Part shown: piece by piece, positions 1 to 14,247 of the stretch
Layout of the letters: each line of letters begins with the position of its first letter
How positions within the stretch are numbered: position 1 is the first letter of the stretch
From: Tetramitus jugosus
Taxonomy: Eukaryota > Heterolobosea > Eutetramitea > Acrasida > Vahlkampfiidae
Length of the DNA: 64,000 nucleotides
Direction: 5' to 3'
Assembly (NCBI GenBank): GCA_937625935.1
Contig: OW569393.1
Coordinates: forward strand, 62,001 to 126,000
Notes under the pieces: model-generated
The model's database searches: none
The model's input: only the letters and a program-made list of their open reading frames with translations
What the model was told of the DNA's origin: nothing
Made by a program: the position numbers and the translations under genes

Positions 1-1
1 G

Positions 2-418
2 TCTGGTTATCCTTGTATCGTGTTGGGCACAGGCAACAGAGACGAAGATGGTTACTTGTACTATTTTTGTAAGGCGGGAGACGGTGTCGCCGATGTTCAA
101 CTCATTAATGATTTGCACAAATCAGAGGTGTTTTTGATCTCAAAGAAGCTCAATGTGCCAGAGAGCATTATCAATGCACCACCAAGTGCTGATTTGTGGG
201 ATGGACAGACAGATGAGGACGAATTGGGCTTTAGCTATGATTTTGTCGAGTTGTTGACAGAGTATTTGGACTATTCAGAAGAGGAACAACAAAGAATGCT
301 CAATAGCTTTAGTGAAGAAGGATTGAAGCAGTTTAGAGAGCTGGAGAAGATGGCTGTGACTGTTCATAACAGAAATTCACACAAGGCTGACTATCCGTAC
401 AATATCAACATTTTGTAA
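2..418 (+). CDS. NAD synthetase, C-terminal part (5' end outside window)
   Basis: The frame is open from base 2 to the stop at 416-418, so only the last 138 or so residues are visible. They carry the signatures of the NAD+ synthetase (NadE) ATP-pyrophosphatase family: GTGNRDEDGY, then a GDG followed by DLHKSEVF, then PPSADLWDGQTDEDELG. In this family these segments belong to the phosphate and deamido-NAD binding face and the subunit interface. The enzyme makes NAD+ from nicotinic acid adenine dinucleotide with ATP and ammonia or glutamine. Whether an N-terminal glutaminase domain is present cannot be seen. The C-terminus has the basic RNSHKADYP pattern expected at the family's end, so the 3' end looks complete. 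Cytosolic location is inferred. Confidence 0.85.
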   Translation, partial: SGYPCIVLGTGNRDEDGYLYYFCKAGDGVADVQLINDLHKSEVFLISKKLNVPESIINAPPSADLWDGQTDEDELGFSYDFVELLTEYLDYSEEEQQRMLNSFSEEGLKQFRELEKMAVTVHNRNSHKADYPYNINIL

Positions 419-875
419 AAAGAAGAATGAGAATAGAATTCCATCTATTGATTTTTAATTTGCTAGTAGCACACACTTGTTGTTCCAACCAATGTTGCAG
501 CATACACAGATGACTTGTGAACAACAAGAACACACAGAAGAGCTTCATGCATGGACCACTGTTGTTTGTTATTCAAGAGCTCGAAAGGTGTTTCACAAAG
601 ATTACTTCACCACAATCAACAACCATGAATGGAACTACTCACACAAGATGGTGGACTAGATCATCAAGAGTAAGCACAGAATCAAGGCATGTCAATCATA
701 CCCCTCTCTTGTTTGCACAGATTTGCATTTCTAGCGGAGCATTTTTTGGCATAATTTTTTTTCGTTGAAGGATGCACGGACCGGTTGACAACGATGAAGT
801 CAACCCGAGAGAAAAAACGAAAAATCAAAAAAAACAAACACACATCAAGTCACCAATCACATATAGCCAAAAAAC
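419..875. other. Intergenic, no gene seen
   Basis: AT-rich spacer between the NAD synthetase stop and the eL33 start. Short open frames on both strands have no recognisable protein pattern. The last 100 bases before the eL33 start are A-rich and are probably the promoter and 5' leader. Confidence 0.5.
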
Positions 876-2263: not shown

Positions 2264-3538
2264 ATGTGGTACATTAACGGAAAAACCTATGACCTGAACA
2301 ATTTTAACCATCCTGGAGGTCCAATTGCACTCTCACTCGGTAAGGAACCAAACAAGGATGCCACTGGTCTCTTTCGATCCTATCATCCCTTTTCATTGGA
2401 CAAAGCTGAAGCTGTTTTGAACAAGTATGAAGTCAAGGCAGCAGGCAATGACGCTGAACCAAAGAGCAAGGAACAATTGGAAGAAGAAGCAGTGTTTGAC
2501 TGGAACACAAAATCAGAGTTTTTTGAAGAATTGAAGGGTATTGTTTCGCCTATTCTGAAAAAGAGCGGAACAAAGGCTACTTGGGGCCGTTGGGGCCAAA
2601 TTGTAGCGCTCATGCTGATTACGTGGGCCTCCTCCATTCCATTTTTGCACGGCAATTATTTGGCGCTCATTCTTTTCCCGCTTTTGCTGTGGATGAGCGC
2701 TGTAAATATTTTGCACGATGCAACGCATTTTGCGCTCAGTATGAATTGGCGGGTGAATCACTACTGGAGCTACATGTTCCCATGGTTCACTTCACCATTC
2801 ACGTGGTATCATCAACATGTGATTGGTCATCACATTTATACCAATATTCACAGAAAGGATCCTGATATGCATCATGGAACTTATTTGTGGAAGTATCACG
2901 AGAAGGCTCGTTGGTACAATTGGTACAGGTGGCAAAGATATTATGTTTGGTTCGTTTGGACCAACATGATGATGTCTTTGGCCTTTTTGATTGATTTTGT
3001 CTTCTTTTTGAAGGGAAATTATCACAAGGTGGTCAAAATGATGCCCATTTCAAAGAATAGAAGACGATTGCACCATGCAGTTCGTTTCTTGACGTTTTTC
3101 ACCATTTATGTGTGGCCATTCTTTAATCCACACCTCTCATGGTCCAAAGCTTTTATTTGGTCCGTTATTCCATATGGTATCATTGGTTACTGTTTTGCCT
3201 TCTCTAGTCAGTTGAATCACATTACAGGTGACAATCAAGGTCAATTTAGCAAGGATTGGTACAAGCATCAAGTCATGACCAGTCATACTTTTGCTCCAGA
3301 CAGTCTGTTTTGGTTCTTGTTCACTGGTGGATTGAATCTCCAGATTGAGCATCACTTGTTCCCTGGTGTCAATCATTGGCATTTGAGAACATTGCAACCC
3401 ATTGTGTATCAAATGTGCAAGAAGCACAATGTGAATTACAATTTGAGTGATACGGCTTGGATTGCGCTCAAGAAGCATTTGGATCATTTGGATCAGATGG
3501 CACTTGGACCTGATGCCACTAGCAAGAAATCTCATTAA
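2264..3538 (+). CDS. Front-end fatty acid desaturase with N-terminal cytochrome b5 domain
   Basis: 424 residues. Residues 1-60 are a compact cytochrome b5 domain with the heme-ligating HPGG (16-19) and a second heme His in SYHPF (41). The desaturase has the three histidine boxes of the diiron centre: HDATH (151-155), HVIGHH (185-190) and QIEHH (360-364). The Gln in the third box marks the front-end (delta-4/5/6/8) group, which places a double bond between an existing one and the carboxyl end. Hydrophobic stretches near 112-150, 230-250 and 275-315 fit an ER membrane protein using cytochrome b5 electrons for polyunsaturated fatty acid synthesis. Regiospecificity cannot be read. The start at 2264 is the first ATG after an A-rich leader. 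Confidence 0.93.
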   Translation: MWYINGKTYDLNNFNHPGGPIALSLGKEPNKDATGLFRSYHPFSLDKAEAVLNKYEVKAAGNDAEPKSKEQLEEEAVFDWNTKSEFFEELKGIVSPILKKSGTKATWGRWGQIVALMLITWASSIPFLHGNYLALILFPLLLWMSAVNILHDATHFALSMNWRVNHYWSYMFPWFTSPFTWYHQHVIGHHIYTNIHRKDPDMHHGTYLWKYHEKARWYNWYRWQRYYVWFVWTNMMMSLAFLIDFVFFLKGNYHKVVKMMPISKNRRRLHHAVRFLTFFTIYVWPFFNPHLSWSKAFIWSVIPYGIIGYCFAFSSQLNHITGDNQGQFSKDWYKHQVMTSHTFAPDSLFWFLFTGGLNLQIEHHLFPGVNHWHLRTLQPIVYQMCKKHNVNYNLSDTAWIALKKHLDHLDQMALGPDATSKKSH

Positions 3539-3736: not shown

Positions 3737-6118
3737 TTATTTCGTCATCGTATGATCAGGGGACGATGATGATGATGAGCGAACAATCTTGTCCACTACG
3801 GAAGCAAGCTTCTTCCGAGTGAAACGAGTGTCCAAACAATTGGTAATCATGATACCGTTTGTTCTCGTGTCCTCTCTCATTCTCTCATCTTGGATCCGCA
3901 TTAAAAATTCATGGACAACAAACCTAATATTATGAAGGAAAGTACCTCCTCCAAGCTCAAAATAAAACTTGTACTTGTTCTTGCCGAACGAGCGGTGTTG
4001 TTGTTGTTCCTCATGACAGGAGCAACAACTACTGGTTGTGGCCACATTCATGGAGTTGTCCTTTGATTGTTGAACATATCTCTTCAAGTAGATTTGTTCT
4101 ACTTCTCTCTTGTCCAGTGCTGGTTGAAATGTTTGGCACAAGCGACTCCAAACAATGTCACTTCCCGCAATTTGATAGCACGTATAGTCTACGTAGCTTA
4201 GTTTCACTAATTGTCTCGCATTTAAGAACGAGCAAATGTGATAAATGATATCTCTGTAACCTTCCTCTAGAAGAACTTTAAATGTGCCTGTTTTGCAAAC
4301 GATTCGATCAAACATGTGATCAAAATTGGTTGGAACAGCACCATTGTGGCCATTGTTGCCATTGCTATTGTTATTCAATGATAATAATCGATTGGGGCTT
4401 GGAACGGAATAGGAACTACTGCTACTATAGCTATTGTAGTTATTTTGGATGGGAGATGCTACAGTAGGGGTACTTGATTCCACAGTCATTGGCCGACCCG
4501 CGTTCTGCGAGTAGCGCAAGTGCTTTGGTAAATTGGGAAAAGCTTCCTTGAGATCCGTCCTGAGCAATTGCCGAATGAAGCGATCCTTGTGCGTAAAAAT
4601 GAGCACGATACGCGTGTCTGGTTGAAATTTGGGATGATTGGCAATTTCATTGAAAAGCTCCAATGATTCCGCAATCTTGTCACTGTTGGAGTTATCACCA
4701 CTACCGTTATTGTAAAAGTCATCGTCGGACAAATGCTCATTGAAGCCGGATAGGGATACACAATAGAAAATGGCGCTTGTTTGATCGAATAGATTGGTCC
4801 ATTTGCGCCTTTCGTGCCTAGATCCCCCTACATCGACAAATTGTATCGTTCTTTGCTTGGGTAGCAATGGATGAGTCAGTGAAGACTCAATAATTCCACT
4901 CGTAGGAGAATTGAGAGCCAACTAATGTATTGTTAAAAGTAATTGCAATAATACATCAAAAGCAGCACACAGAACAACAAAAAGCTTAGTGTTAGCTTTG
5001 CACTTTGTTACTCATTCAAAATAATATGAATGCCAAAAAAGACATTCACACAACAATAAAAAAAAATAAATACAACAATAAAAAAATTCTTACAAAACGA
5101 CACATACAAATGCCTTTAGCTTCATATTAGAGCTAACCTTGTGCTGTTGATCATAATACAGCTCACTAATGTGAGACAACAAAAATGGTGCAGTATAAGG
5201 TCGTATCAAATGACACTCTGACACTGCATTCAAACAATTTTCCCTAAACGCATCTTCCTTCATCCAAAGCTTTTGTAAATCTTGAACAAACGATGGACTA
5301 TTGTGCAAGAGACTTGAAATCTCTGAAAAGGTAACTACACTTGACAATTGTTTCAACATTTGCCACAATAGTTCACTGCTCTCATGCTCAAAATGTTGTA
5401 TAGGATACACTAGGAGAATACCCTTCAAGAACTGAACACAGTTCATGACTAGTTTTAGCTTTGTCCACGAGTCCATCACTGTTATACCTACATCAATGTT
5501 GTCTTCATCAGTTAGCTTTTGATGATTACAATTGTTATTTGTATGACTACTACTACTACCATTATTGGTCGTAAAGCTTTCATTTTTTGTTGTTATGCTA
5601 TTATTTTTGTTGCTATAGCTATTGCTATTGCTATTGTTGGTTGTGGCTGTTGATGGATAAATGACATGGGAGAGATACTTAAAAATGGTTGATTTTCCCG
5701 ACTCTGTCGTGCCCAATAGTAAAATTTTGATGGGTCGCATGTCCTCAGCAGCAGCAGATCGAGGTGATGATCTCTTCATTCGCATAGGCAACGATAACGT
5801 AAGTGTTCGTTGTTGCGAATCACCGCCGCCATTTTCTCCGTCATTTTCCATGGCTGAAAAACAACAAGAGTCAAAAGAGGGACACCGCCGACTACTACGT
5901 TTGACAGTTCCTGTCGTCACAGAAATAACATTTTTTCTGTCTCGTATTTTTCCCATGGTTTCCAAGTCGTTTGTGTCGAGTGCTGTACTTGTTTGAGAGC
6001 CATAATAAAATGAACGAGCACCTCTGTGTCGTTGTTTTTGTCGTCGTTGTTGTGGTTGGTGGTGCATGTCGTCGTTGTCGACATCCAAAAAATCAGTGCT
6101 TGCAAAATTGTTGCCCAT
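3737..6118 (-). CDS. G-protein alpha subunit with an F-box domain inserted in the GTPase domain
   Basis: Complement join 5138-6118 and 3737-4921, 721 residues, roughly twice a usual G-alpha. The ATG at 6118 gives MGNN, a possible N-myristoylation start. Order: low-complexity N-terminus; P-loop GTTESGKST (136-144); helical domain with an Asn/Ser-rich insert; switch I NSPTSGIIE (331-339); switch II DVGGSRHERRKW (357-368); a degenerate NKxD box THKD (437-440); about 100 residues of low complexity; an F-box (about 543-587, GYRDIIYHICSFLNARQLV then VWSRL); then the remaining G-alpha helix and a TCAT-equivalent TNCLDTRF (687-694). The switch I Arg and switch II Gln needed for GTP hydrolysis appear to be Asn and Ser. 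F-boxes normally bind Skp1 in SCF ubiquitin ligases. I infer a G-protein-like scaffold for ubiquitination. Confidence 0.85.
4922..5137 (-). other. Intron of G-alpha gene
   Basis: 216-nt phase-0 intron, donor AAG|GTTAGC and acceptor TTAG|TTG on the minus strand. It joins YYDQQHK to LALNSPTSGIIE, placing switch I right after the helical domain as in all G-alpha proteins. Confidence 0.8.
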
Positions 6119-7058
6119 GTTGATGATTTTTTTTTTCGTTGAAAGAAATAATGGAAACAAAAGTGAAATTTTGGTTTTGTCTGTTGCTGGTGTTTTTTTT
6201 TGGTGGTGTGGAGGAGAAATCTGTTGTTCGAATGAGCCGTTGGAACGTTATGTTGTGGTGACACAAAGGATAATGGAGATGACGATGATCAATAGCACAC
6301 GAGAGTTTGTTTGTTTTTTTGGTCGGATTTGGGGTTGGTGACCGAAAGGTGTGTGACCACAGTGAAGTGTTATGTGGTTTGGCAAGAGAGTGAGTGGTTG
6401 GGGGTTGCGACTTTTGCTGCTTTGCTCCACAATGGAAAACGTTGGGATGTCGAACACCCAAAAAAAACCATGGATGTCGCTCGTGCAACAGGGATTTTTC
6501 TGTTTAAAATCTAATTAACTGTCCCCATCATCGTCACTCTTTCAAGCTTCTCCTTATGACACAAGCTTGAAAGGAATTTGTCCACATCGATGTATTGAAA
6601 CTACAACTTGAACAGTGAGGATCATTGTTCAATGATGCAAAATCCCTGATTCGGCATCGACAATGACGGTCATCTTGCGACGTAAAAGGGAACTCCAACT
6701 GTCAATGTGTTTGTGAGCAAATCATTACTTTATTTATTTTTACAACAAAAGCTTAAAGTCCTGGAAAGGATTGTCTCCATGTGTGCATTGTGTTGTTCCA
6801 GCGTGGAAAAAAGAGACATCCGATTGGTGCATTTCAATTCGATGTGGCAAAAAAAAAACAAGAATGTCATCCGAGCCATATTGGGTGGATTCCATCGATG
6901 TCGCCCCATTACGGAGAGAATCACTTTTTTCTCCTCCCTGCTCATTTCTCCGAATGTGAAGCTTTTCGTTGAAGTTGACGTGACGCTTGCATTTTTGCTT
7001 TGTTCGTCAGAGAGCAGCTGAAAAAACAACAAACAAAAAGAACAAAAGGAGACAGAGA
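6119..7058. other. Divergent intergenic region between G-alpha and GNAT genes
   Basis: About 940 bases between two divergent starts. The part next to G-alpha is a T/G-rich (A/C-rich on the minus strand) leader. Overlapping open frames here are low-complexity and unconvincing. The middle (6530-6700) holds several short inverted repeats, including the hairpin at 6539-6573 and ATCATTG..CAATGAT at 6621-6636. Presumably it contains both promoters. Confidence 0.4.
6539..6573. repeat. 11-bp stem, 13-nt loop inverted repeat
   Basis: CTTTCAAGCTT at 6539-6549 is followed after 13 bases by its exact reverse complement at 6563-6573. It is in noncoding DNA between divergent genes. It could be a cis element or an RNA hairpin; function unknown. 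Confidence 0.5.
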
Positions 7059-7991
7059 ATGAGCCCACAACAGAAACCAGTACCACTTACGATTGAAACG
7101 TTGAACAATGGAGAACAAGTGAAACAATTGTTTTATGAATGGGCACACAGAGAAGGTTGGCAACCAGGTACCAAGGATTTGGAGCCGTTTTTTGAGATTG
7201 ATCACAATGGTTTTTTCGTTGGCAAGATTCAAGAGAATGAGCACACGGATCCAAAAATAGTTTCCATTGTAAGCGGAGTATCTTATGACAAGGACTATGG
7301 CTTTATTGGTTTTTATGTTGTTGATCCAGAGGAGAGAGGAAAAAATTATGGGTATCCATTGTTTAGAGCCGCAATGGATTATTTGGGTGAGGAGAGAACA
7401 ATTGGATTGGAAGCGGTGTCCGCTCAGGCGCACAATTATGAAAAGTGCGGTTTTGTAACGTTGTACACGACGCGACGATATTGGGTGCCTGCGTCTGATA
7501 TTGTGAAGCACAAGACTGAAGAGAATACTGGAGATATTCGTTTTGTTCAAGCTCAGGGTGTTCCTATTGAACAATTGGTCAAGTATGATTCTGAGATTTT
7601 TGGTCACGAGAGAGCTCGTTATTTGACAAAGTTGTTTCAAATTGCAAGTTCCTCTGCTGTGGTGATGAAGGAAGACAAGATTGTGGGTTATGGAGCTGTG
7701 AGACCTGCTGATGGTGTTTACAAGGTTGGTCCACTGTTTGCCGATTCAGTTGAGATTGCTGAGCAGTTGTTGATTGAGTTGAGCTCTTCGTTGGAGAACC
7801 GTGAATGGAATGTGTGTTTAGATATTCATGTGCCTAATCACGAAGCGATTCAATTGGCTGAGGAAAAGCTCAAGGCGACTGTCTTGTTCGAGACTGGAAG
7901 AATGTACAGAAGGGGAAAGAATCAACCAGAACCATCCGATGCTCAATCCATTCCGAGGATGTTTATGAGTACTTCTCTGGAGATTGGTTAA
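7059..7991 (+). CDS. GNAT-family N-acetyltransferase with C-terminal second GNAT-like domain
   Basis: 310 residues from ATG 7059. The N-terminal half has the GNAT core: beta strand 4 in YGFIGFYVVDPEERG, then the acetyl-CoA loop RGKNYGYPLFRAAMDYL (residues about 94-110), then GLEAVSAQAHNYEKCGF, the usual motif B asparagine/tyrosine region. The C-terminal half (about 165-300, with KYDSEIFGHERARYL, VGYGAVRP and VGPLFADS) resembles the second domain of YitH/acetyltransf_18-type proteins known from bacteria and nematodes. The substrate is unknown; small-molecule amines are likely for this subgroup. Divergent from the G-alpha gene upstream. The upstream open frame is dropped because it only extends through A-rich leader. 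Confidence 0.8.
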   Translation: MSPQQKPVPLTIETLNNGEQVKQLFYEWAHREGWQPGTKDLEPFFEIDHNGFFVGKIQENEHTDPKIVSIVSGVSYDKDYGFIGFYVVDPEERGKNYGYPLFRAAMDYLGEERTIGLEAVSAQAHNYEKCGFVTLYTTRRYWVPASDIVKHKTEENTGDIRFVQAQGVPIEQLVKYDSEIFGHERARYLTKLFQIASSSAVVMKEDKIVGYGAVRPADGVYKVGPLFADSVEIAEQLLIELSSSLENREWNVCLDIHVPNHEAIQLAEEKLKATVLFETGRMYRRGKNQPEPSDAQSIPRMFMSTSLEIG

Positions 7992-8257: not shown

Positions 8258-11200
8258 ATGTTGAGTAAAGCTGCTGTGCTAGGCAAGAACTTCAAGCAAG
8301 ATTTCACTGAAAATGAAGACGATTCCGATGTACCCATGACAACTGAAACTCAAGTTGTGGGTACTACTGCTGTTGTTGATGGTGATGCTTCTGGGAACGT
8401 GGTCCAGGACAACACGAGTGTCACTGTTGAGGGAGGAAATGATGAAGAAGGTGCAAATTTTCATGTTTTTTGGCAGAGGGATCCAGAGCGAGAGCGGGAT
8501 AAAATCCTTGGATTTTTTGTAATGGATGGTCAACCGATTCCAAGAGAGTTGTTTCATTTGATTATGCAGTTCGTTCCTGCTTTTCCCTTTTATTTCATGT
8601 TGAGGTCAGTGTGCTCTCAGTGGCTCTATGAATTCCAAGAGCAAATCTATGGCAATGTTACTTTTTTGAGTCTGGTGGATGATGGCAGACCAAAGTATTA
8701 TTTCAGAGACAATGGTCAGACATTGGTGCAATTTAAGCCCATTGGTGCCAGTGGAAAGAAATTTAGTTTGGACCAAGCTGGTCAAGCTCAATATTATAAC
8801 AGGACTCCTGTGTTTAAATTTTTGGCCAACGTGTTTCCCAATGTGAAGCATCTAAAGTTGGGGTTAGGTTCATTTACCAATAGGTATGACTTAACTGCTT
8901 GTTTTCAGTCTCTGGTGGCAAAGTTGACGCAGATTGAAACGTTGGATATTTTGGGTGCCACTCTCACTCGTTCACCAACGTTAAATAGGCGTCATTGGAA
9001 ATATGGTTCCCCGTTAAGCGTGAGTGAATTGGAAGTTATTGCACGTTCATTGTCAAGTTCACTCAAGAGTCTTAACTTTGTTGGTGTTAGTTTGAGTACT
9101 CGTTCCATTGATGCGTTAAAATTATTTTCTGAAAAGGGACGAACAGGGACATCTGTTTCAAACTCTCAATTCAGTACCGCACTAATCACAGTGGATATCC
9201 AGCGTCTTACTTTACACTCGATATTTTTATTGCAACATTCTCCCTATATGAACTCGAGCTCATTTGAGTGGGATCGCATTAAGGAAGTGTATACTGACTT
9301 TGAACTGACTGTAGTAGAGTCAGATGATAATACACTCATTCAACAGGCCACTACCGTATCATATGTCGATTACTTGAATTACATGTCAAAGAAAGAAGGA
9401 ATTTTCTTAGCATGTATCGGAACCCATTTGCGAACAGACACTGATGAAGCAGTGGAGGCCATTATTGATACTGCTGTCCGAGAATATCCCTCCTTCCAAC
9501 CACTCCTCTCTCTGCCAGGCAAAGTATTTCAACTCGTCTCGCAAGTCAAATTGAACGGACCTTTTATTGCAAGTCATGTGCATACAGCTATGAAGGCCTT
9601 GGAATTGCTAACTGATCCAATCAGAATGAAGTATCCGGAATTGGTAATGGACATTAACAGTAAGTTCAATTGGTATGCAAACTCTCCACCAACCACTCTC
9701 CTGGGTATTCTGATTCCAATCGAAGGAGCTGTGGAGTTGCTTCCGGCTATCATTGAGACTTACAAGCCTTCATTAACTGTGAATGGTACTCGCAATTATC
9801 TTGTGGAGATATTTACGAATGCATCCCATCTTAGACGACACTTGATGGATTACTTCTTGTCTTTGGAGCCCGAGTTAATTGTCCTTGGAGATACAGATGG
9901 CACTATTAACAATGAAGAAAAGAAGCTACCCCTAATTCAGTTGTTCCTGTCTCGAGATGGTCTAGACTACACTCTGGACGATATCAAATATTTGGTGAGA
10001 GTAGGGGCTTCACTTACACATGTTGACAAATTTGGCAACAATGTACTCCACTCTGCCTGTCTTACATTGGACGTAGATTTAGTGCAATACCTTCTCTCGG
10101 TATGTCCCGAGAGTATGTTCTTCGAAAGAAATACTGAAGGCCAGACTCCTCTTGAGCTCATTTTCTCACCCAACAAGAAGGGCATTTTGTTACATACATT
10201 CCTTGAAGCAGCTTCTAAGTGGCCTATCTTCCAGGATCGAAAGCTGTCAAGTTATAAAACATCATGTGGCAACTTACTTCATTCTGCATTAGTGAATCCC
10301 AGTGTAGCCACAATCCAATGGTTACTAGCACATGATTTTGAGGCGAATGCGTTGAATGATCGAGAGGAAAACGCATTATTCTATTCTAGAACTGAATCAA
10401 AGAAGCAGATACATTCCTATCGTAGCCAATATCGTACGTACGATACCATGGTCAGTCTAGATCATTATATTGATCCTTATGCAGAAGAATTAATCAAAGC
10501 TGGAGCAAAAGTGGATCTGGAAAACATTGACGGAAGAACGATAGTTACATCAGCTCTTCGTAACAGCAATTACCAGTTGATCAATTACATTATCCGAAAC
10601 CCAGATATCTCTTCTAAACCTTTGGCAGTACTGTTGGGCCCCAGAATGCAACACGGCTTCAATGCTTTACATTTTGTGTTCAAAACCATGGTGGATATTG
10701 CAGATCCTATGAAGGGAATGAACAAAAAGCAAAAAGCATTCACAGTAGGCAATTATCCTATCGCCAGACACTGTGCGCTACTTTGCCTGGAACATTACCC
10801 TGAAATGCTGTACGAAAGATCTGAACTATCAGATGAGGAGGATCTAAAAGGTATTTGTGGTTTAAGTCCCCTTCAAATTTTACTCGAAGCATCCAAAGGC
10901 TTACCATTGTTGAATGATTTATCAATCAACCTGAGAGATATCGCCAATAAGCCAGTGTTCGCGAGCAAAGATCCGAATGTGATTGCTCCCATTCCTGTCT
11001 TGTATCTTGCATTGGAGGTGGCATTGGACATTCCAATGTTTGACAGATTGATGACTTATACTGATAATGTTCTGATCAGAGATGAGACACAAGAAACCAA
11101 ACCCAATCTTTTGCACATTGCTGCTGAGAGAGATGCATCTCTCTGTCAATGTATCATCAGGCATTGGAAGAAAAAATTTAAGGTGAAGGAAGAGTTGTTG

Positions 11201-12247
11201 AAGTTGATTAATCAACCACTGGAGAATGATGCTGTTGATGGACGAAAACCAAGAAATGCTGCTATGATTGCGTGTCATCTCGGCATCTATGAAAGATTTG
11301 CAATTCTTTGGCCATATACTCAAGCTGTTGCAGAACAGTTTGATTGTCCAGCACAAATTGCTCTAGATAACAATGATCACCAATTCGCATTGTATTCTGT
11401 CCTCCATCATGCGATACTTCCAACCAAGGATCAATTACATAGGATAATTCGGAAGTGTTTGTCTCAACGGAGCTTGACTCCAGAAGTGTATGAGACTAAG
11501 TTTGTGACTTTGATGATGCAGACTGAAGAGAAACAAACAAAGCCATCGTGGCTTGAGATGTTGACACAAACACCATCAGACGCAGTTGATTCTGAAGAAC
11601 ACTACAGACTAAAGGGTTTGAGCACATTGCAATTAATGGTATTAGAGCTAGCTAATTACATGTTCGGTTGGCTTGTTCGTCACTACCGTGATGATCCATT
11701 GTTGAATCGTGCTGTGAGGACTATTGATATCAGAACAGGAGATACTCTCTTGCACATATTAACAAGCTCCACAAAATCAAGGGCTAGCATTGAGTTGTCT
11801 TCTATTCTATCCTCGATTGTAAACCAATTTACGTCGGATGGCGCCCCAATTGACAAAGCACAAAAATTCTCCAAACGAACAAAGGTTAAGCTCCCCTCTA
11901 TTGAGCACTTAAACACGAAAGAATTGACAGAATTCGTGAATATCCAGAACAAGTTTGGTCGAACTTGTCTCCATAATGTCTCGGCGAACTCTTTGTCACC
12001 TATTCTGCAGGATCTGCTCGTGCTTGGAGCCAACACTGAACTCAGGGACTCCCAGGGCAAAACACCTCAAGAGCTCATCACCAAGGAATCATTGACCGAC
12101 ATTATTACAAAATTTTTGAACAAGCGAGATGGTAAGAAGCCACAAAAGAGAAAGCAGGAGTACACAGTATATGACACTGAGGACGACGAAGAACATTCTT
12201 CGTCAACCAAGAAACCAAGAAAAAAAAGAAAGACAACCAAGAAATAA
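8258..12247 (+). CDS. Large F-box/ankyrin-repeat protein (complete paralog)
   Basis: 1329 residues. Acidic, Thr/Val-rich N-terminus; F-box-like helices at about 93-130 (IPRELFHLIMQFVPAFPF, then LRSVCSQWLYEF); a long middle with regularly spaced leucines after FPNVKHLKLGLGS, like LRRs of F-box proteins; ankyrin-type repeats from about 590 (GNNVLHSACLTLDVDLVQYLL, NLLHSALVNP, LIKAGAKVDLEN, NLLHIAAERD) and one near the C-terminus (GRTCLHNVSANS, LVLGANTELRD). The tail is strongly basic (KKPRKKRKTTKK), a likely nuclear localisation signal. The architecture suggests a substrate receptor of an SCF ubiquitin ligase. It is the same family as three genes at 50.9-57.7 kb, with the same domain order and shared phrases such as PAFPFYFMLRSVC. 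Confidence 0.8.
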   Translation: MLSKAAVLGKNFKQDFTENEDDSDVPMTTETQVVGTTAVVDGDASGNVVQDNTSVTVEGGNDEEGANFHVFWQRDPERERDKILGFFVMDGQPIPRELFHLIMQFVPAFPFYFMLRSVCSQWLYEFQEQIYGNVTFLSLVDDGRPKYYFRDNGQTLVQFKPIGASGKKFSLDQAGQAQYYNRTPVFKFLANVFPNVKHLKLGLGSFTNRYDLTACFQSLVAKLTQIETLDILGATLTRSPTLNRRHWKYGSPLSVSELEVIARSLSSSLKSLNFVGVSLSTRSIDALKLFSEKGRTGTSVSNSQFSTALITVDIQRLTLHSIFLLQHSPYMNSSSFEWDRIKEVYTDFELTVVESDDNTLIQQATTVSYVDYLNYMSKKEGIFLACIGTHLRTDTDEAVEAIIDTAVREYPSFQPLLSLPGKVFQLVSQVKLNGPFIASHVHTAMKALELLTDPIRMKYPELVMDINSKFNWYANSPPTTLLGILIPIEGAVELLPAIIETYKPSLTVNGTRNYLVEIFTNASHLRRHLMDYFLSLEPELIVLGDTDGTINNEEKKLPLIQLFLSRDGLDYTLDDIKYLVRVGASLTHVDKFGNNVLHSACLTLDVDLVQYLLSVCPESMFFERNTEGQTPLELIFSPNKKGILLHTFLEAASKWPIFQDRKLSSYKTSCGNLLHSALVNPSVATIQWLLAHDFEANALNDREENALFYSRTESKKQIHSYRSQYRTYDTMVSLDHYIDPYAEELIKAGAKVDLENIDGRTIVTSALRNSNYQLINYIIRNPDISSKPLAVLLGPRMQHGFNALHFVFKTMVDIADPMKGMNKKQKAFTVGNYPIARHCALLCLEHYPEMLYERSELSDEEDLKGICGLSPLQILLEASKGLPLLNDLSINLRDIANKPVFASKDPNVIAPIPVLYLALEVALDIPMFDRLMTYTDNVLIRDETQETKPNLLHIAAERDASLCQCIIRHWKKKFKVKEELLKLINQPLENDAVDGRKPRNAAMIACHLGIYERFAILWPYTQAVAEQFDCPAQIALDNNDHQFALYSVLHHAILPTKDQLHRIIRKCLSQRSLTPEVYETKFVTLMMQTEEKQTKPSWLEMLTQTPSDAVDSEEHYRLKGLSTLQLMVLELANYMFGWLVRHYRDDPLLNRAVRTIDIRTGDTLLHILTSSTKSRASIELSSILSSIVNQFTSDGAPIDKAQKFSKRTKVKLPSIEHLNTKELTEFVNIQNKFGRTCLHNVSANSLSPILQDLLVLGANTELRDSQGKTPQELITKESLTDIITKFLNKRDGKKPQKRKQEYTVYDTEDDEEHSSSTKKPRKKRKTTKK

Positions 12248-12396: not shown

Positions 12397-14247
12397 ATGA
12401 CTTCTCAGGACCAAAGACGTAACATTCTGATCTACAACACAGGAGGTACTCTCTCATGCGACTATGATGATGACGGTGAAAAGCTTGTTGTGAAACAAGG
12501 AGTGATAGAGAAATGGATACAGGATCACAAACTGCTTGCTCAGTTCACAAATGAATTCAATTTTGATTTCATTGAGAGTGAACCTTCGTTTGACTCTTCG
12601 CAATCATGTGTGCTCACTTGGAATCGATTGATCACTGAGATACAGAATCAACTATTGAACAAGATTCTATTAGCAGAGGAGAATGTAATCAAACAAAAGG
12701 AGGCTCCTATTAATCATTCTTCAATTGAGCAAGTTGGACTAGCAAGAAAACTTGCAACGAGTATTGAGCAATTCATTACCACTCAATCACAAAAAACTGA
12801 AATGGTTGAGAATGAAGAAGATTATGAGAGAAAAGCAGATATGATTGAAGATTTACAACAATTGGATCAAGATATTCGAAGCAGGTTGTTAGAATTGAAA
12901 GAGATTCTGAGAAGCATTGCAGATGAGTTCAATTTAGAAGAGATTGAAGAGTTGAGGAGACAATCATACTCTGCTTGTGTAATTATTCATGGTACTGACA
13001 CGTTGGCATACTCTGGAAGTGTTTTGAGCTTTGGTATCGTTCATGCTGATATCCCGTTTGTTCTTACAGGTTCCCAGTTCCCTATGGTATTTCCAAATTC
13101 TGACGCACCTGGTAATCTCTATGGATCTGTACTTTCTTCTGTAGAGATGGTGAAAAGAGGTGTGGAAGGCAAATTTGTGTTCTTTGATAAGTATCTGATG
13201 AGAGCTACCAGAGTTAGAAAGGTGCACACCAACAGTGTAGATGCATTCGAGTCGGTTAATTGCCCACCTGTGGGGCAGGTTCAAGGAAATCAAGTCCAAC
13301 TGCTTGAGAACTATTTCAGAGGCCTTCAAGTGAAGAATTTGAGATACTTTCCTGTTCCCCACATCATGAAATTCTCTCCATCTGCCCAATTACTCAGAAT
13401 TCACCCATTATTCGATATCCAAGATTTTAGATCGATCACACGAAGAGAGTTGTCAAGAGTCATCATCTTGCAGACTTATGGGGCAGGGAATGTTCATAGA
13501 GACATTGCCAAAGAGATTGACTCTGATCGCAACAACATTTACTTTTCTTGCAGTGAGTGCTACAATGGAAGATGTGAAGATAAGTACGCATCCGCAGTTG
13601 ACAGTTCGAATTGTATCTCACTTCATGACATGACACCAGAAGCTGCGTTGGTGAAAGCTTCCTTCTTGATGGCAAAACCACTGGCCAGTCCATGTCACAG
13701 CTGGAATGATGATACAACACATGAACAACTGAGGATCATTCTCAAGGAGAAAATTCCATACTTAATGGAATCAACCTTGCGAGCTCAAATATTTATTGGT
13801 GATAATGGATCGATAAATACCCAGTTAGTTGAAGCAATTGAAAAAGTGATTAGTGAAGTTCGTCATATTCAGCATGACGAAGTGGAACACTTGATCGATC
13901 GCGCAGACACTTGCAGTGAATTTGTGAAGACTGCTTTGTACAGACTGAGCAAACAACAGACAGAAACATTCAAAGAGAGTGTGCTTGGGAAAGTAGTAAC
14001 AGCTGCTGCAGAGGTGGACGATTTTATGATGCACTGCGCACCACTCCCAAAAGCACTGAAAGAATTTCTCGAGCCATCTGTGACAAAATCCCTGATGGAA
14101 ATGTATCAGAATGACCACTCGGAACACTTGAAGAAGATTACAAAGAGACATATTTATCAGATTGAAATGGGAGTCTCAGTGGTTGGTGAAATTATCAATT
14201 TGGAGAGTAGAAAATCTTTGGATGGACATTTACATGCAAACTTTTGA
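12397..14247 (+). CDS. L-asparaginase (type I-like) with internal and C-terminal extensions
   Basis: 616 residues. The asparaginase active site is present: first Thr box NTGGTLS (14-20), second box IIHGTDTLAYSGS (196-208) with the Thr-Asp pair, and Lys275 in RVRKVHTNSVDAF, plus FVLTGSQFPM and ILQTYGAGN. It would hydrolyse L-asparagine to aspartate and ammonia, presumably in the cytosol, as there is no signal peptide. Usual enzymes have about 75 residues between the first two boxes; here there are about 175, with an inserted charged, predicted coiled-coil region (about 85-190). Residues about 480-616 form an alpha-helical tail that I do not recognise; it lacks the ankyrin repeats of animal ASPG. 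Starts 150 bases after the F-box/ankyrin gene on the same strand. Confidence 0.88.
   Translation: MTSQDQRRNILIYNTGGTLSCDYDDDGEKLVVKQGVIEKWIQDHKLLAQFTNEFNFDFIESEPSFDSSQSCVLTWNRLITEIQNQLLNKILLAEENVIKQKEAPINHSSIEQVGLARKLATSIEQFITTQSQKTEMVENEEDYERKADMIEDLQQLDQDIRSRLLELKEILRSIADEFNLEEIEELRRQSYSACVIIHGTDTLAYSGSVLSFGIVHADIPFVLTGSQFPMVFPNSDAPGNLYGSVLSSVEMVKRGVEGKFVFFDKYLMRATRVRKVHTNSVDAFESVNCPPVGQVQGNQVQLLENYFRGLQVKNLRYFPVPHIMKFSPSAQLLRIHPLFDIQDFRSITRRELSRVIILQTYGAGNVHRDIAKEIDSDRNNIYFSCSECYNGRCEDKYASAVDSSNCISLHDMTPEAALVKASFLMAKPLASPCHSWNDDTTHEQLRIILKEKIPYLMESTLRAQIFIGDNGSINTQLVEAIEKVISEVRHIQHDEVEHLIDRADTCSEFVKTALYRLSKQQTETFKESVLGKVVTAAAEVDDFMMHCAPLPKALKEFLEPSVTKSLMEMYQNDHSEHLKKITKRHIYQIEMGVSVVGEIINLESRKSLDGHLHANF

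Follow-up and report, generated by a model that had tools for sequence, protein, structure and literature searches.

Within a stretch of 64,000 nucleotides of the Tetramitus jugosus genome (contig OW569393.1, positions 62,001 to 126,000; hereafter the window), a gene was found that encodes a homologue of the heterotrimeric G-protein alpha subunit (G-alpha) with an F-box apparently nested inside its G domain, a layout shared by five paralogues elsewhere in the genome. The gene occupies positions 6118-3737 of the minus strand and comprises two exons with a 721-aa product. With a probability of roughly 0.55, we interpret the product as a G-alpha-based substrate adaptor of an SCF (Skp1-Cul1-F-box) ligase, the G-alpha scaffold of which would have little or no GTPase cycling.

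Structure of the gene

The features of the gene and the matches of its second exon in the genome are listed in Table 1. The coordinates, the intron (5137-4922) and the 721-residue product agreed with those of the original prediction. Twelve GT-AG pairs in the range tested kept the frame open, among which the proposed pair gave the best G-alpha reading by eye, and the gene is probably spliced at this 216-bp GT..AG intron. Exon 2 alone is a single open frame of 394 aa that runs from switch I to the C-terminus.

Table 1. Features of the G-alpha/F-box gene in the window and matches of its exon 2 at paralogous loci (contig:position)
Feature	Position	Strand	Residues	E value	Remarks
Exon 1	5138..6118	-	1-327		Starts MGNNFAST; P-loop; helical domain with Asn/Ser-rich stretch
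Intron, 216 bp	4922..5137	-			GT..AG; inferred from reading frame and G-alpha homology
Exon 2	3737..4921	-	328-721 + stop		Switch I to C-terminus, F-box within unbroken frame
P-loop, GTTESGKST	5687..5713	-	136-144		Lys and Ser retained
Switch I region, LALNSPTSGII	4889..4921	-	328-338		Asn instead of catalytic Arg; Mg-binding Thr retained
Switch II, DVGGSRHERRKW	4799..4834	-	357-368		Catalytic Gln replaced by Ser
G4 box	4583..4594	-	437-440		THKD instead of NKxD
AlphaG-alpha4 loop insertion	3932..4531	-	458-657		About 200 residues, borders approximate; in order: low-complexity linker, F-box, second linker, KYKFYFELGG segment
F-box	4115..4282	-	541-596		Pfam core 551-590
Resumed G-alpha core	3788..3931	-	658-705		Alpha4 (NIRFVVHEFL), beta6, degenerate TCAT loop (TNCLDT), alpha5
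Paralogue match	C3:408378-408824		Exon 2 residues 223-388	1.1e-11
Paralogue match	C6:178336-178818		Exon 2 residues 224-382	6.8e-11
Paralogue match	C13:433877-434869			9.1e-9
Paralogue match	C13:292806-293255			1.7e-7
Paralogue match	C28:308579-308758			8.6e-4

The G-alpha model of Pfam (PF00503) matched residues 123-469 of the product over model positions 15-281 of 333 (E 1.9e-43), and the closest solved structures by sequence were those of G-alpha z, transducin/Gi chimeras and G-alpha o. In NCBIfam, the window protein and the paralogue C13a were unmatched and the paralogue C3 had two matches, both below the cut-off. The N-termini MGNN (window protein and C3) and MGAKQSK (C13a) would presumably suit N-myristoylation, judging from the general pattern. 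Neighbouring genes on the plus strand of the window encode a fatty acid desaturase (2264-3538), the N-terminal cytochrome b5-like part of which fell just under the Pfam cut-off, a GNAT acetyltransferase with two GNAT matches (6987-7991), an ankyrin-repeat protein (8258-12247) and an asparaginase-family protein (12397-14247).

Identity of the F-box

Considered singly, the F-box of the window protein is weak. In the full protein, the F-box-like model of Pfam matched residues 551-590 with an E of 0.014, and exon 2 alone gave E 0.003 and 17.7 bits, which did not reach the curated cut-off of 24.3; the Leu-Pro start that is typical of many F-boxes is missing. By itself this F-box would be doubtful, and it is the paralogues that appear to secure it.

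A search of exon 2 against its own genome (26.3 Mb, 56 contigs) gave 20 matches, the window gene included, and at five loci on four other contigs (C3, C6, C13 and C28) the match extended through the F-box part. Every paralogue F-box shares one open frame (465 to 744 aa) with flanking G-alpha-like sequence; in the two members on C13 (C13a and C13b) the P-loop lies on a separate upstream exon. Four of the five paralogue frames (C3, C13a, C13b and C28) scored above the Pfam cut-off for G-alpha, while C6 was not found. When whole frames were compared with the F-box-like model, C13a (37.4 bits) and C28 (26.0 bits) passed the cut-off, C3 (19.8 bits) and C6 (17.4 bits) fell below it and the F-box of C13b was undetected at E 0.01. 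In the genome-wide search with the same model three of the five passed (42.3, 30.2 and 25.2 bits, the last being C3). The C6 member (L030:1834-3657; G000 C6) carries an F-box and family-like flanks and its G-alpha part is invisible to Pfam; it may be read as a far-diverged pseudo-G-alpha.

A profile built from the six F-boxes and compared with the PDB ranked F-box proteins first, the best match being F-box only protein 3 (E 9.7e-8), followed by FBXW proteins, FBXO4, beta-TrCP (FBXW1A), FBXL5, FBXW7 and Skp2. The matches with names lacking the word F-box were an ECT2-oncogene-like protein (0.0062), KDM2A (0.015), a Toxoplasma protein (0.084) and terpene synthases (0.24), the first two of which we take to carry F-boxes. 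From the F-box to the C-terminus, the window protein aligned with each of the five paralogues at 12.8-30.6 standard deviations over 200 shuffles, and the weakest of the other ten segment pairs reached 5.9 standard deviations over 200 shuffles. The two structure predictions from single sequences were uninformative (mean pLDDT 35.5 and 47.6); in the latter, that of the F-box, the segment was modelled as helical, and a PDB fold search with it returned no match.

A chance F-box match was rejected on the strength of the profile comparison with the PDB (9.7e-8), a misassembly or a pair of genes on the repetition of the layout by the paralogues, and a separate neighbouring gene for the F-box alone on the unbroken frame of exon 2. 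Since five paralogues carry a homologous in-frame F-box and the profile finds F-box structures first, chance, misassembly and separate genes are all very unlikely. As far as a sequence profile can identify it, the window segment is an F-box.

Position of the insertion

The original prediction placed the F-box inside the Ras-like domain of G-alpha, and this was borne out by the five paralogues, in which the insertion falls at nearly the same point. Seven G-alphas of the same genome were used to build a model of 323 positions, which stopped at position 262 in the window protein, 261 in C3, 263 in C13a, 262 in C13b and 267 in C28, and at 261-263 in C6, where the score was only 10.5 bits. After the F-box the model resumed weakly in C13a (at position 271, 5.4 bits) and in C6 (5.6 bits). 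When C13a was aligned to G-alpha o, the alignment broke after chain residue 273 and was picked up at 280, the last piece scoring 1.6 bits.

A return to G-alpha after the F-box had also been proposed, and it is supported by a profile-profile comparison in which the six post-F-box tails matched eight alpha4-beta6-alpha5 tails, out of the 18 from other G-alphas in the same genome (96.1%, E 3.1e-9 for this one comparison), the F-box profile as a control giving 0.1% with each of the same two tail profiles. Compared alone with the PDB, the post-F-box tails ranked G-alpha first at a non-significant E of 0.52. The window protein has TNCLDT where G-alpha has TCATDT. The segment VHEFLMRIQ, initially taken for the last helix, is actually alpha4, and alpha5 comes after TNCLDT. 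The break points of the G-alpha model and the resumed tail together indicate that the F-box was inserted between alphaG and alpha4; nesting in the alphaG-alpha4 loop, with alpha4, beta6 and alpha5 resuming afterwards, is thus supported at the level of sequence profiles. The same loop is also the place of the Rho insert helix and of the i3 insert of G-alpha-s. How the G domain would tolerate a module of about 200 residues at this position is a question raised by the nested arrangement.

GTPase motifs

The 24 assembled G-alpha-like genes were aligned and compared at twelve landmark positions; the fragments in this alignment were not spliced exactly, and several motif positions were unreadable where exons were unjoined. 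The full set of GTPase motifs was seen in none of the six F-box members, most positions of C6 being unreadable. In the window member the catalytic Arg is replaced by Asn, the Gln by Ser and the NK of the G4 box by TH, with the Lys, Ser, Thr and both Asp kept; its P-loop fits GxxxxGK[S/T], and its switch II (DVGGS) retains DxxG apart from the change of Gln to Ser. The degeneracy of the NKxD box had been recognized in the original prediction and was found again here (THKD at residues 437-440). The pattern of changes varies among the paralogues. C3 has Lys for Arg and TH for NK and keeps the Gln. C13a keeps the Arg, the Gln and NKxD and has Ala for the P-loop Ser, and Leu for Asp and Ser for Gly in switch II, and C13b adds His for Gln to the same three changes. 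Seven of the twelve positions are changed in C28, and in C6, where eight of twelve are unreadable, two of the remaining four are changed.

Among the 18 other G-alphas, seven have all twelve positions, C23 and C5 have all that are readable and C12 has all from switch I on; the other eight are changed, so that loss of motifs is not peculiar to the members with an F-box. The window protein is best regarded as a G-alpha homologue by descent, and we do not claim it as a working canonical G-alpha. The control by nucleotide that was originally suggested for it is weakened accordingly: Lys and Ser in the P-loop, Thr in switch I and Asp in switch II are kept, but the catalytic Arg, the Gln and NKxD are lost, and the full set occurs in none of the six members.

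Origin of the family

A tree was inferred for 21 of the 24 G-alpha-like genes, C6, a Kelch protein and C3b being left out as too fragmentary. C3 and C28 formed a pair (94.6/98) which the window copy joined at 68.3/73, set apart from the rest, and C13a and C13b formed another (80.2/79) adjoining a BTB-carrying G-alpha (95.5/85). Forcing the five F-box members into a single clade gave a tree that was not the best one, but the AU test did not reject it (p 0.243). All F-box G-alphas probably share a common origin, although the G-alpha tree does not itself show this, and the simplest account is a single insertion with subsequent divergence; the F-box may also have been gained in two lineages.

Ligase components and other fusions in the genome

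Two matches to the Skp1 family were found, one of which is a 188-aa frame ending in ENKWCEEA. Of the 13 cullin matches, eight were strong (204 to 631 bits), and two were compared with the PDB: for L048 (C11:335170-337206) Cullin-1 took the top seven of 17 matches (8.3e-89), and L044 was nearest to Cullin-3, then to Cullin-4 and Cullin-1. Counted per exon, F-box-like domains gave at least 134 matches (150 of 253 candidates scored), and RGS domains, whose bearers are possible partners, at least 130 in the 26 Mb genome. There are two G-gamma-like matches, with identities of 48% and 63% to their N. fowleri counterpart, which fits a species other than N. fowleri.

Comparison by eye of the Ras-family and F-box matches listed revealed at least eight genes (L064-L071) with an F-box and a GTPase in one open frame; the GTPase is called Rho-like from a reading by eye, the search having used the Ras family. 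Like the window gene, these combine an F-box and a GTPase in one frame, but they are tandem: the F-box is N-terminal to the whole GTPase in all eight, none is nested and the P-loop pattern is intact in each. Upstream sequence appeared by eye to be Kelch-like in L065 and L066 and oxygenase-like in L064. In view of the eight tandems, the joining of G proteins to F-boxes seems to be a habit of this genome, of which nesting in G-alpha is an unusual form.

Two further G-alpha-like frames deserve mention. L039:353-2791 (G000 C14:382852-385290, minus strand) is an 813-aa G-alpha frame, after which comes a BTB segment that scored 22.1 bits in Pfam (cut-off 20.5) and had no match in the PDB at E 1; the frame is possibly a Cul3-type counterpart with a RhoBTB-like layout. 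L034:477-3647 (G000 C35), a frame of 1057 aa, combines Kelch repeats with a diverged region resembling G-alpha (PF00503 53.3 bits, cut-off 48.8) and also gave weak TPR-like matches.

Possible function

A role as ligase adaptor is plausible, the genome encoding both Skp1 and a Cul1-type cullin. As such an adaptor, the window protein would bind Skp1, and thereby Cul1, through the F-box on the flexible alphaG-alpha4 loop, and its G-alpha body, perhaps tethered to the membrane by the N-terminus, would select the target of ubiquitylation. The likeliest targets would be G-protein signalling components able to recognise the surface of G-alpha, such as RGS-domain proteins, receptors and beta-gamma. 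The loss of the catalytic Arg and Gln and the retention of the phosphate/Mg site predict very slow hydrolysis by the window member, should it bind GTP. Control might then be exerted via binding partners, expression or self-ubiquitylation and not by the ordinary GTPase cycle. Folding, binding of Skp1, substrates and nucleotide state are all predictions from the sequence. A bolder proposal, which we hold tentatively, is that these G-alphas could be their own effectors, the body reading a signal from receptor, RGS protein or nucleotide and directly positioning the nested Skp1-Cul1 ligase on a bound partner; if true, G-protein signalling would be wired to protein destruction without an intermediate.

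Alternatively, the F-box could serve mainly to destroy its own carrier: through recruitment of Skp1-Cul1, a constitutively active G-alpha would be self-ubiquitylated and rapidly turned over, and this would take the place of GTP hydrolysis in switching it off. The window member, which has lost the catalytic Arg and Gln, could profit from such a mechanism, and the authors describing the trypanosome protein TbFRP tentatively link its F-box with its rapid proteolysis (PMC3593210). However, the losses differ in C3, which keeps the Gln, and in C13a, which keeps both residues, and we regard this explanation as rather unlikely. Slightly less probable still is that the F-box merely docks a partner, be it Skp1 or some other protein, with no working ligase involved, and that the proteins are pseudo-GTPase scaffolds. 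The absence of a complete set of the tested motif positions from all six members and the failure of Pfam to recognise C6 as a G-alpha would agree with such scaffolds, but the F-box pattern can be recognised even in copies that have diverged strongly, and the genome has genes for Skp1 and a Cul1-type cullin. A decaying gene or an artefact of the gene model, in which two neighbouring genes or a misassembly are read as one protein, might be suspected from the intron inferred from sequence only, the motif losses and the low-complexity stretches, but is highly improbable given that the frame of exon 2 by itself extends without a break from switch II across the F-box to the end of G-alpha and that the layout recurs in five paralogues on four other contigs.

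If the F-box works in the SCF adaptor that we favour, a heterotrimeric G-alpha scaffold would be coupled directly to a cullin ligase. As the genome carries both ordinary G-alphas and six diverged F-box copies, the question of how the G domain accommodates such a module can be tested by comparison. A small family of G-alpha relatives with a docking module for protein disposal in mid-fold would hint at a direct link between signalling and destruction.

Comparison with known systems

RhoBTB proteins are Rho GTPases with C-terminal BTB domains that serve Cul3, not Cul1. They resemble the window protein in joining a GTPase to an adaptor domain for a cullin ligase and differ in the class of GTPase (Rho), in the C-terminal BTB domains and in the cullin (Cul3). 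Among the papers listed in searches of the open-licence literature, none was seen from its title or the start of its abstract to describe a G-alpha with an F-box. The original remark that no described protein with such a layout was known agrees, for G-alpha, with these listings; fusions of GTPase and F-box as such have been described (PMC3593210, PMC8358228).

In N. fowleri, 13 G-alphas were reported, of which G-alpha6 has a low-complexity insertion before switch I (PMC9283941). As in the genome studied here, the family is large and has an insertion-bearing member; on the other hand, the term F-box is absent from the main text of that article. The small-GTPase supplement of PMC8296547 may already record small GTPases that bear such domains, since reviews on F-box, BTB and RhoBTB proteins are among its references.

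In the articles consulted, small GTPases are the only ones for which a joined F-box is described (PMC3593210, PMC8358228), and it is among these that the nearest described relatives in kind are found, namely TbFRP and the ARF-family F-box proteins. TbFRP is a trypanosome FYVE-F-box-Ras-like GTPase the F-box of which, its authors suggest, may be coupled to the rapid proteolysis of the protein (PMC3593210). It is similar to the window protein in having an F-box and a GTPase in one protein and in being a lineage-restricted combination, whereas its GTPase is a small Rab/Ras-like one, its FYVE, F-box and GTPase parts are in tandem and the F-box lies outside the G domain (PMC3593210). ARF-family proteins with F-box or BTB domains likewise combine a GTPase with a ubiquitination-linked domain in a lineage-specific manner, but the GTPase is ARF and not G-alpha (PMC8358228). 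Fusions of GTPase and F-box are thus already known; what appears from the literature covered to be new here is that a heterotrimeric G-alpha is joined to an F-box, and that the F-box is nested and not in tandem.
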